DNA from: Rubripirellula sp.
GTDB taxonomy: Bacteria; Planctomycetota; Planctomycetia; Pirellulales; Pirellulaceae
DNA: 64,000 bases
NCBI GenBank assembly: GCA_012270065.1
Contig: JAAXJB010000084.1
Span: 132,081 to 196,080 of the forward strand
Direction of reading: 5' to 3'
Part shown: one piece after another, positions 2,994 to 6,833 of the stretch
Position numbering within the stretch: the first letter of the stretch is position 1
How the letters are laid out: each line of letters begins with the position of its first letter
Notes under the pieces: model-generated
What the model saw: the letters and a program-made list of their open reading frames with translations, nothing else
Database searches by the model: none
Told to the model about the DNA's origin: nothing
Program-made: the position numbers and the translations under genes

Positions 2994-4430
2994 ATGTGGT
3001 TTGACGTGGTAATCACGCTCAGCTGCGCGGGCTGTGGACTTGTCTGTGGTTGGATCATGTGTGCTGTGACGGGCCTTGATATTGACCACTACAGTGATGT
3101 CGTTGCAAAACGCGGCAAGGGCCGTGACACAGATCAGGTTACCGCGGAGCAGTTGAGTCAGGTTGCCAACCGTTTGCGTGATTTTGCGACCACCATGGTT
3201 GAAAATGTTGACGCACATCAGACGCGTGTTCAGGCGGTGAATGAGGAACTGCAGGAGGCTGGTGATGCATCTTCCGAGGTGGTTTTGGCTGCTGTAAGTC
3301 AGTTGATTCAGTCCAATGAATCCATGCAGAGCCAGTTGCAGGATGCCAAAGATCGTATTCAGCAACAAACCATGCAGCTTGAATCTGCTGAGCGACGTGC
3401 GGAAACAGATGCTTTGACCCAGGTTCCAAATCGACGTGCGTTCGATGCCTATGTAAAACGGCGTCATGCAGAGGGACCCGGTGGTGCCGGCACACTTGCA
3501 TTGCTGGATGTCGACTTGTTCAAGCAGTTCAATGATGTCTACGGTCATCGTGCCGGTGATGAGGTGTTGCGTGTTGTCGCAAATGTATTGCATTCCCACT
3601 TGCAGCCGTATGGACTGGTCGCGAGATTTGGGGGAGAAGAGTTCGCCATCATTCTGGACGAATGTCCCATTAGTGAGGCGGCTCAGAAAATTGAAAAAGC
3701 CCGTGTCGCAATTGGCCAACTTGTTATCGAATTTGAGGGGCAGCCATTGCGGGTCGCTGCTTCCGCCGGTGTCGCCACCCTGCTCGAAGATGAGACGGTC
3801 GAGAGTTGGTTGCAGCGCACCGATGATGCGCTCTACTACTCGAAAGAGCAGGGAAGAAACTGTGCCCATCGAATGCAAGGCAAGAAACCATCCTTGATCG
3901 AGTTGGCATCAGAAGAAACCGAATTCCCAAATCCTGACATGTTGTCATTCGGTGACGGAGATTCAGAGGATGGAACGGTTTTGAGGGCAATTGAAGGTAA
4001 CGGCGTGTTCGCGTCCCTTGCCAACCGTTCATCGCTTGAGAAGTCGTTCAATGATATCCGAAGTCGCACTCAGGAAGCTGTCTCGGTCCATCTGATGGTC
4101 GTGATGTGCGCCCCGGGTTTACGGAATTCATCCATACGGTCAATTCTGCAAGTCGTCCGGATGCCGCTACGGTCTGTTGACAGGATTGGTGCCATTGATG
4201 ATTCGACATTGCTGGTTTGCATGCCCAGTGCAGATGCTGAATTAGCTCGCCAGCGTGGAGAACAGATTTGCCATTCCATTGCGTCTTTGGGCATCAAAAC
4301 ACTGGATGATCAGGTTCCGCCAGTTCGGGTTGGGCTTGCAGAAGCCTCCCCTGGCGAAGATTTTAACCGGATCGTTTCACGTGCATTGCAAGAGGCAGTG
4401 GGTCAGAGCGATAACGCTGACTTGGCTTAA
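2994..4430 (+). CDS. membrane-anchored diguanylate cyclase with a second, degenerate GGDEF-like domain
   Basis: Predicted to make cyclic di-GMP from two GTP. One N-terminal membrane helix (about 3-27) is followed by a coiled-coil-rich linker (about 45-135). A canonical GGDEF domain (about 137-300) contains the D-x-L-T-x-x-x-N-R-R start, the metal/nucleotide motif LDVDLFKQFND and the active-site signature RFGGEEF (GGEEF at 213-217). The inhibitory I-site RxxD expected just upstream is replaced by QPYG, so product feedback inhibition should be absent. Residues about 345-475 resemble a second cyclase fold (RIGAIDDSTLLVCMP, then VRVGLAEA) without a GGDEF signature. That makes it a degenerate lobe that might bind a ligand or partner. 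It is monocistronic. The start ATG is about 14 bp after a GGGAG. Confidence 0.85.
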   Translation: MWFDVVITLSCAGCGLVCGWIMCAVTGLDIDHYSDVVAKRGKGRDTDQVTAEQLSQVANRLRDFATTMVENVDAHQTRVQAVNEELQEAGDASSEVVLAAVSQLIQSNESMQSQLQDAKDRIQQQTMQLESAERRAETDALTQVPNRRAFDAYVKRRHAEGPGGAGTLALLDVDLFKQFNDVYGHRAGDEVLRVVANVLHSHLQPYGLVARFGGEEFAIILDECPISEAAQKIEKARVAIGQLVIEFEGQPLRVAASAGVATLLEDETVESWLQRTDDALYYSKEQGRNCAHRMQGKKPSLIELASEETEFPNPDMLSFGDGDSEDGTVLRAIEGNGVFASLANRSSLEKSFNDIRSRTQEAVSVHLMVVMCAPGLRNSSIRSILQVVRMPLRSVDRIGAIDDSTLLVCMPSADAELARQRGEQICHSIASLGIKTLDDQVPPVRVGLAEASPGEDFNRIVSRALQEAVGQSDNADLA

Positions 4431-4532
4431 AGTCCAGTCTCAGGCAGATTGATAGAGTCAGTCATGCAGTGAGAACAGAGTTTCAGAATCGGATTCTTCG
4501 CCGTGAAACTTGGACACGCAAAAAAACAGGAT

Positions 4533-4580
4533 TTCGACCGTAAATCCATCTTGACCTTTATAAACGCGGTTTTCTATTCT
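4533..4580 (+). promoter_or_regulatory. promoter-like elements of the candidate small RNA
   Basis: Two overlapping readings are possible. TATAAA at 4559-4564 is a good -10 box with a weak TTCGAC at 4533-4538, and would start transcription near 4571, just before the 5' arm of the closing stem. Alternatively TTGACC at 4551-4556 is a -35 box with TATTCT at 4575-4580 as the -10 (18-bp spacer), giving a start near 4587. The first reading fits the RNA structure better. Confidence 0.45.
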
Positions 4581-4857
4581 CCCGGACATGTTGAGTGGTT
4601 GGAAACAACAGCCCAGCATTTGGTTTTCGGATTCAGAGCGGTCCTGCATTGGCAATCATCAGATTGCTGCGGACAGATTGCTGTTCGATCACACGGACGT
4701 GAACGCACAGCATTCGTGATGCTTCCGGAGAAACTGTTCGACGTGTTTTGGCAAGGATGCCGGATCTCATGTCGAACTCCAATCCACCGGCTCCCGGGAT
4801 TTCAAGCGCGTCGTCCTCCGCCCCCCTAGGACAACGTACTTTCCGGGAGCTTTTTTT
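4571..4857 (+). ncRNA. candidate structured small RNA, family not recognised
   Basis: A roughly 285-nt transcript is suggested by promoter-like boxes, extensive self-complementarity and a terminal U-run. The 5' end CTCCCGGA (4579-4586) is perfectly complementary to TCCGGGAG (4842-4849), closing the molecule immediately before seven T residues. Inside are a hairpin GTCC(T)GC...GC GGAC with CAATC/GATTG (4641-4674), and a hairpin CGACGTG/CATGTCG (4739-4745 with 4768-4774, one G-U pair) enclosing GGCA-AGGA-TGCC (4750-4761). GTCGTCCT/AGGACAAC also pairs near the 3' end. A second segment GCTCCCGG (4790-4797) competes for the same 3' arm. I looked for signatures of SRP RNA, tmRNA, RNase P RNA and 6S RNA and did not find them. 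It lies between a diguanylate cyclase gene and a two-component system, both pointing away from or toward it without overlap. Confidence 0.55.
4790..4857 (+). terminator. intrinsic terminator at the end of the candidate small RNA
   Basis: GCTCCCGG at 4790-4797 pairs perfectly with CCGGGAGC at 4843-4850, followed directly by TTTTTTT (4851-4857). The long loop holds its own hairpin, GTCGTCCT with AGGACAAC. The same 3' arm can also pair with the 5' end of the transcript at 4579-4586, so the terminator stem has two possible partners. Confidence 0.65.
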
Positions 4858-5011
4858 ATGCGCGATTGGTTTTCATGCGTAATGAGTGATGTGGATTCAA
4901 ATCGCATCCATTCGTCACGCCAGCGTCAAATGCATTTGATGAAGCACGAATGAATTTTGCGAAAGTGGAGTGATGCGTTTGGCCTGGCAACCATCGTCAA
5001 ACTGTGCGGTG

Positions 5012-5860
5012 TCAATTTGAATTGGTGTCAGTGGGCACGTCCGTTTCTGGATCGCTTGTGTCGCTGGGAGGCTCATTGGCCTGCAATCCCCCATCGGTCT
5101 GTGCATTTTCGCCGGCCGGTGAAGTTTTACCCTCGCTGACGGGATTTTGAATGAAGCGATATCCTGCGTCCCGGACAGTGAGAAGATGAACGGGGGTCGT
5201 TGTATCCGGTTCAATGATTTTCCGCAGCCTGGCGATGAATTGGTCCACAGCTCTTGTTTGAATGTTACCTGGCAGTTCCCAGACTTCGTTTAGCAGTTCG
5301 TTCCGACTGATGACGCGGTCTCTGTTCTCTGCAAAGTACTTGAGTAATTTCAGCTCCTTGGGTGTCATTCTGACCGCTTTGTTGGCGACAGTTGCTTCAT
5401 GCGTTTCGAAATTGACGCTCACGTTGCCGAAATCAAGCTCCACCAGAGTGTCCCTGGGTTTCACTGATTTTACAGGATTGGGTTTGCTTCTCCCCGCTTG
5501 AAGCAGGTTATTGACACGACTGAGCAGTTCGTCAAGCTCGAACGGTTTACTCATGTACTGGTTTGCGCCGACATCAAAGCCTCGTGTCCGGTCTTCCGCA
5601 AGGGTTCGTGCTGAAAGCATGAGAACGGGTGTGGTGACGCCAGCATCGCGTATGGTCTCGCACACGGTGTAACCACTCATGCCGGGCAACATGAGATCGA
5701 GTACGAGAAGATCAATCGAATCGCCATTCTGGTTGATCATCCGAAGGGCTGTAGGACCATCCTCCACCAGAGTTACGCGATAGTTCTCGGCTTCCAGGTT
5801 GTATTTGATACCTACCCCGAGGTGTTTTTCATCTTCGACGACGAGGATGTGTGGACGCAT
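5012..5860 (-). CDS. OmpR/PhoB-family response regulator
   Basis: Transcription factor of a two-component system, presumably phosphorylated by the kinase encoded just upstream. The N-terminal receiver domain starts with ILVVEDE (acidic pocket), carries the phospho-acceptor Asp in LLVLDLMLPGMSG, the Thr/Ser position in LMLSA and the Lys in SKPFELDEL. A C-terminal winged-helix DNA-binding domain follows (MTPKELKLLKYFAENRDRV to VRDAGYRFI). A roughly 35-residue acidic, disordered tail ends the protein. The start was set at the ATG at 5860 because ILVVEDE should lie at the extreme N terminus; the longer reading would add 29 unlikely residues. It is 37 bp after the kinase stop, so co-transcription is likely. 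The regulon is unknown. Confidence 0.92.
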   Translation of the reverse strand: MRPHILVVEDEKHLGVGIKYNLEAENYRVTLVEDGPTALRMINQNGDSIDLLVLDLMLPGMSGYTVCETIRDAGVTTPVLMLSARTLAEDRTRGFDVGANQYMSKPFELDELLSRVNNLLQAGRSKPNPVKSVKPRDTLVELDFGNVSVNFETHEATVANKAVRMTPKELKLLKYFAENRDRVISRNELLNEVWELPGNIQTRAVDQFIARLRKIIEPDTTTPVHLLTVRDAGYRFIQNPVSEGKTSPAGENAQTDGGLQANEPPSDTSDPETDVPTDTNSN

Positions 5861-5897
5861 GACTGCCTCATTCTCGAATTTGGTTCTACCAATGATT

Positions 5898-6833
5898 CTA
5901 GGTGCCGCAGGTCTCTGCGGGAATAACACCGCCCAAGGTAACTTCAAATTCGGTTCCCGTTCCCATTTCCCGGTCCTGCAGTCGGATGGACCCTCTCAGA
6001 CTCTTGACCACGTTGCGAACCAGGTGCAATCCAAGTCCTGTGCCGGGGGCACTGCGTTCCAGTTCATTTCCAAGACGGATGAAACGCCCGAATATCTTGC
6101 GTCTCTGGTTGGCGGGAATCCCCGGGCCATTATCGATGATCGAGACGATGACCTTTTCATCATCTGACACTCGAACATTGATTTGTACTTTGGGTGTAGA
6201 CCCGGCATATTTGACCGCGTTATCGATCAAGTTTCGAAACAGGATCTCAAGCTGGATCAATTGGCTTCGAAGGAGGACAGGAGTGGAATTGAGAGAGACA
6301 GTTTCTTCAGGCAAGCGATAACGAACGCAAATGGCCGAACCGCACTGCCGGAGCAATTCATCCAGTTGCACCACTTCATCGTTGGCGATCTCACCTCCGC
6401 GGTCGATTCGTGCTGCATCCAGAAGGTGGTTGATAAGCAGGTCAAGACGTTCTACATCTTCCAGCATGAACTGGTGGAAATCCTGCTGTTGCCGGACATC
6501 GACGCTGTGACGCGTCATGGTCTGCAGATAAAGTTTCAACGAAGCGATCGGGCTCTTCAGTTCATGAGTGACCGCGTCAATGAAGTTTGACTGACGTTGG
6601 TTGAGTTTGAATGCTTTGACCGTGAGTGTCAGATAGGCAATCACACCTGCCAGTACGCCAACCAGGAGGACAGTTCCAGTTGACAGAATGACCCAGAAAG
6701 CCACGGAGGATTCAAGGTTGCCGGTCGCTCCCAGCACGTTTCCCAGAATCCAGACACCGGCCAGGACCACGATCAGGACGATCATGACAACGCCGAGTGT
6801 GATCGGTGCTTTCAGGCTGCGGCGTTCTAGCAT
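5898..6833 (-). CDS. membrane sensor histidine kinase
   Basis: Sensor partner of the downstream response regulator. Two N-terminal membrane helices (about 12-34 and 47-72) are separated by only a short loop, so there is no sizeable periplasmic sensor domain; sensing may occur in the membrane or through a partner. The dimerisation/phosphoacceptor domain has the H-box THELKSPIASLK. The catalytic domain shows the N-box (RNLIDNAVKYAG), G1 (DNGPGIP) and G2 (GTGLGLHLV). The 311-residue length is short for a histidine kinase because PAS, HAMP and periplasmic modules are missing. The ATG at 6833 is used; a GTG at 6872 would add 13 residues. The 260 bp upstream, shared with a divergent gene, contain a GTATAC palindrome but no convincing promoter. 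Confidence 0.9.
   Translation of the reverse strand: MLERRSLKAPITLGVVMIVLIVVLAGVWILGNVLGATGNLESSVAFWVILSTGTVLLVGVLAGVIAYLTLTVKAFKLNQRQSNFIDAVTHELKSPIASLKLYLQTMTRHSVDVRQQQDFHQFMLEDVERLDLLINHLLDAARIDRGGEIANDEVVQLDELLRQCGSAICVRYRLPEETVSLNSTPVLLRSQLIQLEILFRNLIDNAVKYAGSTPKVQINVRVSDDEKVIVSIIDNGPGIPANQRRKIFGRFIRLGNELERSAPGTGLGLHLVRNVVKSLRGSIRLQDREMGTGTEFEVTLGGVIPAETCGT

Follow-up and report, generated by a model that had tools for sequence, protein, structure and literature searches.

The CsrA dimer has two RNA-binding sites. Among the small RNAs connected with it, McaS of E. coli is a base-pairing sRNA with few GGA sites that antagonises CsrA and uses Hfq, and SR1 also encodes a peptide. To our knowledge, no family of CsrA-antagonist sRNAs is known outside Gammaproteobacteria. 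The consensus of the CsrA site obtained by SELEX is RUACARGGAUGU, with the GGA mostly in six-base loops and on stems of at most four contiguous pairs (PMC7652899). CsrB-family RNAs are widespread in Gammaproteobacteria, and FliW was proposed as the control of CsrA in planctomycetes (PMC4682653). According to a passage of a 2020 review, it was still to be determined whether FliW and sRNAs jointly modulate CsrA in any species (PMC7652899). In Bacillus subtilis, CsrA promotes the pairing of SR1 (PMC9029176). Searches of the open-licence literature listed no paper on a CsrA-binding or CsrB-like RNA of Planctomycetes, as judged by titles and abstract beginnings.

The locus described here lies in a stretch of 64,000 nucleotides of Rubripirellula sp. 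DNA (contig JAAXJB010000084.1, positions 132,081 to 196,080), hereafter called the window. The RNA predicted from it shares with CsrB/CsrC and RsmX/Y/Z of Gammaproteobacteria the stand-alone arrangement, the intrinsic terminator and the GGA in CsrA-type hairpin loops, and csrA is present in the same genome, as for CsrB and RsmZ. It differs from these RNAs by a C6 loop in its terminator, by its phylum and by having no match in Rfam. CsrB carries 22 GGA, whereas the planctomycete RNA has one to three strict sites at most and does not share the many sites of CsrB.

Upstream of the locus lies a GGDEF gene (2994-4430, + strand), and downstream a convergent response regulator gene coding for an OmpR-type DNA-binding domain (ORF 5012-5947, - strand) is followed by a histidine kinase gene. 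Farther upstream, the window contains an ORF of 683 aa (133-2184) which we take, judging from its sequence, to be an NAD-dependent DNA ligase. A consensus scan of the locus detected the promoter-like sequence TTGACC-N18-TATTCT. Both TTGACC and a CTAT in the -10 region are invariant in 17 aligned homologues. A promoter of the same form is present in 63 of 72 order-level sequences, with a spacing of 17 in 44 and of 18 in 19 of them, compared to a mean of 0.98 and a maximum of 4 in mononucleotide shuffles of the 72 sequences. It is also found in 8 of 10 sequences of a second family, f21. Since the promoter is conserved across the homologues, we placed the start of the RNA near 4587. From there, a sigma-70-type promoter would produce a free-standing RNA that ends at the intrinsic terminator (Table 1), close in length to the approximately 285 nt given in an earlier note made from the sequence of the window. 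The promoter-like element, the internal hairpins and the seven Ts listed in that note are all present. The fold is more stable than all of 200 shuffles, both for 4571-4857 (z = -4.57) and from the inferred start, for 4587-4857 (z = -5.21). A scan for short-loop terminators called none at the locus, because the terminator hairpin encloses a long inner hairpin. A protein-coding reading of ORF 4503-4829 (108 aa) was rejected, because in 11 of 16 homologues the length of the matching stretch is off by a number not divisible by 3, and because stops occur in the corresponding first frame of all 16. At the level of sequence, these results strongly support the prediction of a genuine small RNA gene that stands alone and has a promoter and a terminator of its own.

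Table 1 Predicted features of the small RNA locus, in positions of the window.
Feature	Position	Strand	Basis
-35 box TTGACC	4551-4556	+	consensus scan; invariant in 17/17 aligned homologues
-10 box TATTCT	4575-4580	+	consensus scan; TATYCT or TATCTT in aligned relatives
Inferred small RNA, about 271 nt	4587-4857	+	start from -10 box, end at U-tract; fold z, homologues
Stem P2, GUCC-UGCA...UGC-GGAC	4641-4674	+	RNAalifold; two helices (98.3% and 92.5% paired), two-sided change in 4 pairs
First GGA hairpin UCAC-ACGGAC-GUGA, hexaloop 4693-4698	4689-4702	+	97.1% paired, two-sided change in 3/4 pairs
Outer stem GUUCGAC/GUCGAAC enclosing second GGA hairpin	4736-4777	+	85.7% paired, two-sided change in 3 pairs
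Second GGA hairpin GGC-AAGGAU-GCC, hexaloop 4753-4758	4750-4761	+	96.1% paired, two-sided change in 2/3 pairs
3' domain with terminator stem (4790-4799/4841-4850) and inner hairpin (4813-4817/4828-4832)	4790-4850	+	alignment, pair counts, covariance model
C-rich loop CCGCCCCCCU	4818-4827	+	YYGCCCCCCU in nearly all relatives (alignment)
U-tract (T7), intrinsic terminator	4851-4857	+	sequence, alignment

Unguided folding of 17 sequences by RNAalifold recovered stem P2, the first GGA hairpin, the outer stem with the second GGA hairpin inside, and the terminator domain. For the 25 pairs outside the terminator, 93.4% of the cells were paired, compared to 27-45% in slid versions, and 12 pairs showed two-sided change, compared to 4.5 in shuffles, none of 500 of which reached 12. 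Over 30 sequences, 22 of which are distinct, the respective values for the 19 pairs in the 3' domain were 95.0% against at most 54.8% in slid versions, and 8 pairs with two-sided change against 2.7 (0/500 shuffles reached this number); in both tests, the structures derive in part from the tested sequences, so that the slid control leans toward them, and the shuffles ignore relatedness. Covariation, which the earlier note had asked for as a check, was found in both internal stems named there: stem P2 (4641-4674) holds 4 of the 12 pairs, and the outer stem (4736-4777), delimited in the note as 4739-4774, holds 3.

The 3' end itself turned out to be different from what had been proposed. The earlier note described a perfect 8-bp helix closing the molecule (4579-4586 with 4842-4849), and a second segment (4790-4797) competing for the same 3' arm, so that the RNA could switch between two conformations. 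Both complementarities are perfect, that of 4790-4797 being with 4843-4850. In the closing helix, none of the 8 pairs shows two-sided change; two of them fail to form in 11 and 12, respectively, of the 17 homologues. The 75.7% of its cells that are paired in these homologues are explained in part by a CTCC that follows from the conserved promoter. In addition, its 5' arm has two bases in common with the conserved -10 hexamer and precedes the inferred start at about 4587; because of this overlap, the arm most likely lies outside the transcript. Segment 4790-4797, paired with 4843-4850, forms the conserved terminator stem, in which 98.6% of cells are paired. With the closing helix unsupported, the switch falls too. 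The proposal of a standalone, undescribed structured RNA with promoter and terminator is strongly supported at the level of sequence, by its conservation, its covariation and the lack of an Rfam match, but without the closing helix and the switch.

In line with the proposal of an RNA family, a DNA search gave matches in 40 of 60 genomes (own included). In 11 same-genus relatives, these had 71-80% identity over about 290-370 bases; the remaining matches covered mainly the last 45-115 bases, and conservation is higher in the 3' domain than in the GGA part. The order is represented by 396 genomes, of which 345 (own genome included; 281 of 303 of good quality) were matched by a covariance model of the 3' domain, mostly once per genome; among the 51 without a match is one genome of the same genus (G006). 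We retrieved 60 of the 345 matches, from the higher-scoring ones listed. In a sample of the phylum, the same model matched 29 of 244 genomes, consisting of 5 of the own order, 20 of family f21 in the same class (example: CAAUCGCCCCCGGAAAUGGCUUGAGUCCUCCGCCCCCCUGGGACUCG) and 4 of other families; the last four are near the threshold, have no C6 loop in the scan and are probably chance matches. A pattern scan for the C6 hairpin in named genomes detected at least 119 stretches, and among the matches listed nearly all are from Planctomycetota or unnamed bacteria. One Kuenenia and one Zixiibacteriota contig title also appear among the matches listed (L226, L254), which may result from assembly contamination or from transfer.

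Rfam 15, named in the earlier note as one of several checks, was searched with the window and with 18 homologue loci, and neither gave a match at gathering. The best permissive match at the locus was CcsR1 (RF02791), an sRNA with the CCUCCUCCC motif; at 21 bits versus a cut-off of 65.3, membership was rejected. The two RNAs are alike in having a C-rich loop motif, but differ in the loop and in the architecture. The models of CsrB, CsrC, RsmY and RsmZ were not listed up to E 10 for 4400-5050. Membership in 6S RNA (RF00013) was likewise rejected, as the window has no match and the model exceeded its cut-off in none of 20 genomes. That the RNA is nevertheless 6S RNA, or another known family missed by the Rfam models in this phylum, would agree with its usually single copy, its own promoter and its near-universal presence in the order, and with the fact that 6S RNA was otherwise not located in these 20 genomes. 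One of them has a 6S match near the threshold (L199, G037:C6:86620-86838; 45.3 versus 46.4 bits), the other 19 giving none at E 0.001, and the 6S RNA of planctomycetes may be poorly modelled. This match lies on another contig than the match of the 3'-domain model in the same genome. Together with the empty Rfam result for the window and the 18 loci, this makes a known family extremely unlikely.

The RNA of the window contains two GGA hexaloops about 60 nt apart. The earlier note mentions neither these ANGGA hairpins nor the C6 loop, nor the probable connection with CsrA. We looked for such hairpins in the approximately 420 nt preceding the 3' domain in 82 of 105 sequences, 72 from the own order and 10 from f21. 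Omitted were 18 of 20 sequences of the same genus (Rubripirellula group), for redundancy, and 5 of 15 of the second family; the second-family loci L078, L081-L084 and L090 were left out of the hairpin analysis. Hairpins with an ANGGAN hexaloop on at least 3 Watson-Crick pairs occurred 77 times, in 56 of the 82 sequences, compared to a mean of 3.1 and a maximum of 8 in shuffles; the same-genus pair kept in this set (L001, L012) has hairpins, and five hairpin-less loci are among the omitted ones. Of 256 hexaloop classes, ANGGAN ranks first, the runner-up having 16 hairpins. We also took, without regard to stems, the final ANGGA in the 140 nt that precede the 3' domain; 73 of the 82 sequences have one. 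Around it, the closing pair is formed in 68 of 73 (C-G in 65), the second in 67 and the third in 49, the latter with six pair types. Shifting the register by one reduces the closing pair to 5 of 73, and farther out 19-42 of 73 are paired. Compensatory changes around this loop are seen, for example, in the stems gauac/guauc, aaaagc/gcuuuu, gacac/guguc and ccgccgac/guuggcgg, and GC-ANGGAN-GC occurs in 5 of 10 f21 sequences. The frequency of A(N)GGA per 420 nt is only 3.89, compared to 2.74 in shuffles. Pentaloops of the form AGGAN (11 observed; shuffles mean 2.9, max 9) are not among the top classes, and we thus did not use them as main evidence.

Both GGA hairpins of the window RNA, UCAC-ACGGAC-GUGA and GGC-AAGGAU-GCC, fit the form of the CsrA SELEX site. 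The predicted partner protein is present throughout: csrA was found in 60 of 60 genomes, in 2-14 copies and with 5 copies in the genome of the window, two canonical copies of which align over the core with chains of RNA-binding CsrA/RsmE proteins of solved structure, including the 2jpp series. The genomes of L151-L196 have several CsrA paralogues; in some of these, the core is divergent and the C-terminus is extended by a long stretch. FliW was found in 14 of 19 genomes, the one of the window included. Across this genome, GCANGGANGC occurs 361 times versus 183 times for the reversed pattern, and the motif is thus not special to the RNA. Its presence elsewhere would also suit a structured RNA whose GGA loops bind a protein other than CsrA or pair with a C-rich RNA. 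Since the loop sequence, the loop size and the short stem all match the CsrA site, and csrA is present in every genome searched, we regard this alternative as improbable.

We favour, with a probability of about 0.6, the reading that the RNA is a CsrA-binding sRNA acting as a low-capacity antagonist of CsrA, with a second, C-rich function. The ANGGA hexaloops would be exposed on their short stems, and their signature suggests that CsrA most likely binds them. As the CsrA dimer offers two sites, about one dimer would be held per RNA molecule. The likeliest effect would be that CsrA is drawn off mRNAs, as by CsrB-family RNAs and McaS of Gammaproteobacteria. Transcription is predicted from the conserved sequence, CsrA binding from the hairpin signature, and net antagonism is likewise a prediction. 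The reading as a simple sponge is weakened by the number of sites, which is usually 0-2 strict ones per RNA, and by five RNAs of the same genus with none. The higher conservation of the 3' domain relative to the GGA part and the many copies of GCANGGANGC elsewhere in the genome also speak against the favoured reading. In the 82 regions, 0, 1, 2 and 3 strict hexaloop and pentaloop AGGA hairpins were counted in 23, 34, 21 and 4 cases, respectively; inspection showed that some regions counted as zero do have a hairpin, but one that contains a mismatch or a G-U pair.

In the full set of 20 same-genus RNAs, 13 carry a hairpin with 4 or more pairs, two (L011, L013) fall below this limit with a 3-pair hairpin recognised by eye, and five (L014, L016, L017, L019, L020) have no strict GGA hairpin. 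The latter five are short, with 171-204 nt to the first Ts, and have kept the promoter, the 3' domain and csrA. GGA binding can thus not be the sole function of the RNA. Absence of csrA provides no test of these RNAs, because the gene is present in 60 of 60 genomes. By eye, on 16 of 16 csrA matches of the five GGA-less genomes and 30 of 34 of the other five genomes, an atypical class of CsrA was absent from the former and present in the latter. No GGDEF gene was seen upstream at the five GGA-less loci, nor at L004, L011, L013 and L021, and FliW is missing in 3 of 4 GGA-less genomes searched. As the five genomes possibly form one clade, the association of hairpin loss with CsrA class, GGDEF gene and FliW is weak. 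We rejected the absence of FliW alone as the cause, since two genomes without FliW (G020, G048) have kept the GGA hairpin.

Sequences of the order and of the second family alike have a near-invariant C6 loop, YYGCCCCCCU, in the terminator hairpin. It is retained where the GGA hairpins are absent, which argues that it is functional. It is probably a second functional element of the RNA, serving as a base-pairing or a protein site. The genome contains 24 copies of its perfect complement, AGGGGGGCRR, including the antisense of the RNA itself, and 17 copies of the reversed pattern. One of the complements is placed like a Shine-Dalgarno sequence before an ATG ORF of 321 aa, whose product looks like an ABC-type permease. 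The gene is present in 20 of 22 genomes of the genus. Among 20 start regions, the G-run was found in the own genome only, and we rejected the gene as a conserved target of the loop on account of the 19 others.

The same loop could form the core of a base-pairing sRNA in cells without Hfq, with CsrA acting at the GGA hairpins as a chaperone or stabiliser, in the manner of SR1, rather than being sequestered. Hfq was found in none of 19 genomes by a search that was positive in E. coli and B. subtilis. One or two GGA sites fit a chaperone as well as a sponge, and the conservation of the loop, also in RNAs without GGA hairpins, agrees with such a role, for which the help of CsrA in SR1 pairing is a precedent (PMC9029176). 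We nevertheless consider it rather unlikely, as complements of the loop are hardly enriched and the single Shine-Dalgarno-like site is not conserved. The likeness to SR1 lies in CsrA as a possible chaperone of an RNA unlike a CsrB-type sponge; it ends with the peptide encoded by SR1, as the reading frame of the planctomycete RNA is not conserved. McaS is alike in combining few GGA sites with another functional element, but differs in its use of Hfq, and no sequence relation to it was found.

If the reading as a CsrA antagonist with a C-rich second function is right, a group without detectable Hfq would have in this RNA a candidate regulator that is broadly conserved. More tentatively, and at somewhat less than even odds, the family, which spans one order at least and extends to part of another lineage in the class, would join a CsrA-binding ANGGA domain to an invariant C6 terminator loop, and would be the first family of CsrA-antagonist sRNAs outside Gammaproteobacteria; CsrA would then be controlled by RNA as well as FliW, and would perhaps act as an sRNA chaperone. 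Since csrA, fliW and the RNA are all present in the genome of the window, the question of joint control by FliW and sRNA can be tested there directly. The near-invariant C6 loop offers a second handle on the function of the RNA.

Two further observations concern the surroundings of the RNA. A gene for a GGDEF diguanylate cyclase lies upstream on the same strand at 28 of 186 loci scanned, in several genera, a count for which the flanks were unequal in length and some genomes were counted twice; it is speculation that such a neighbour would suit a motile-sessile switch. Directly after the T-run, ATGCGC (4858-4863) is invariant in 17 aligned homologues and, as TGCGC, common across the order, although it is expected to lie beyond the end of the transcript.
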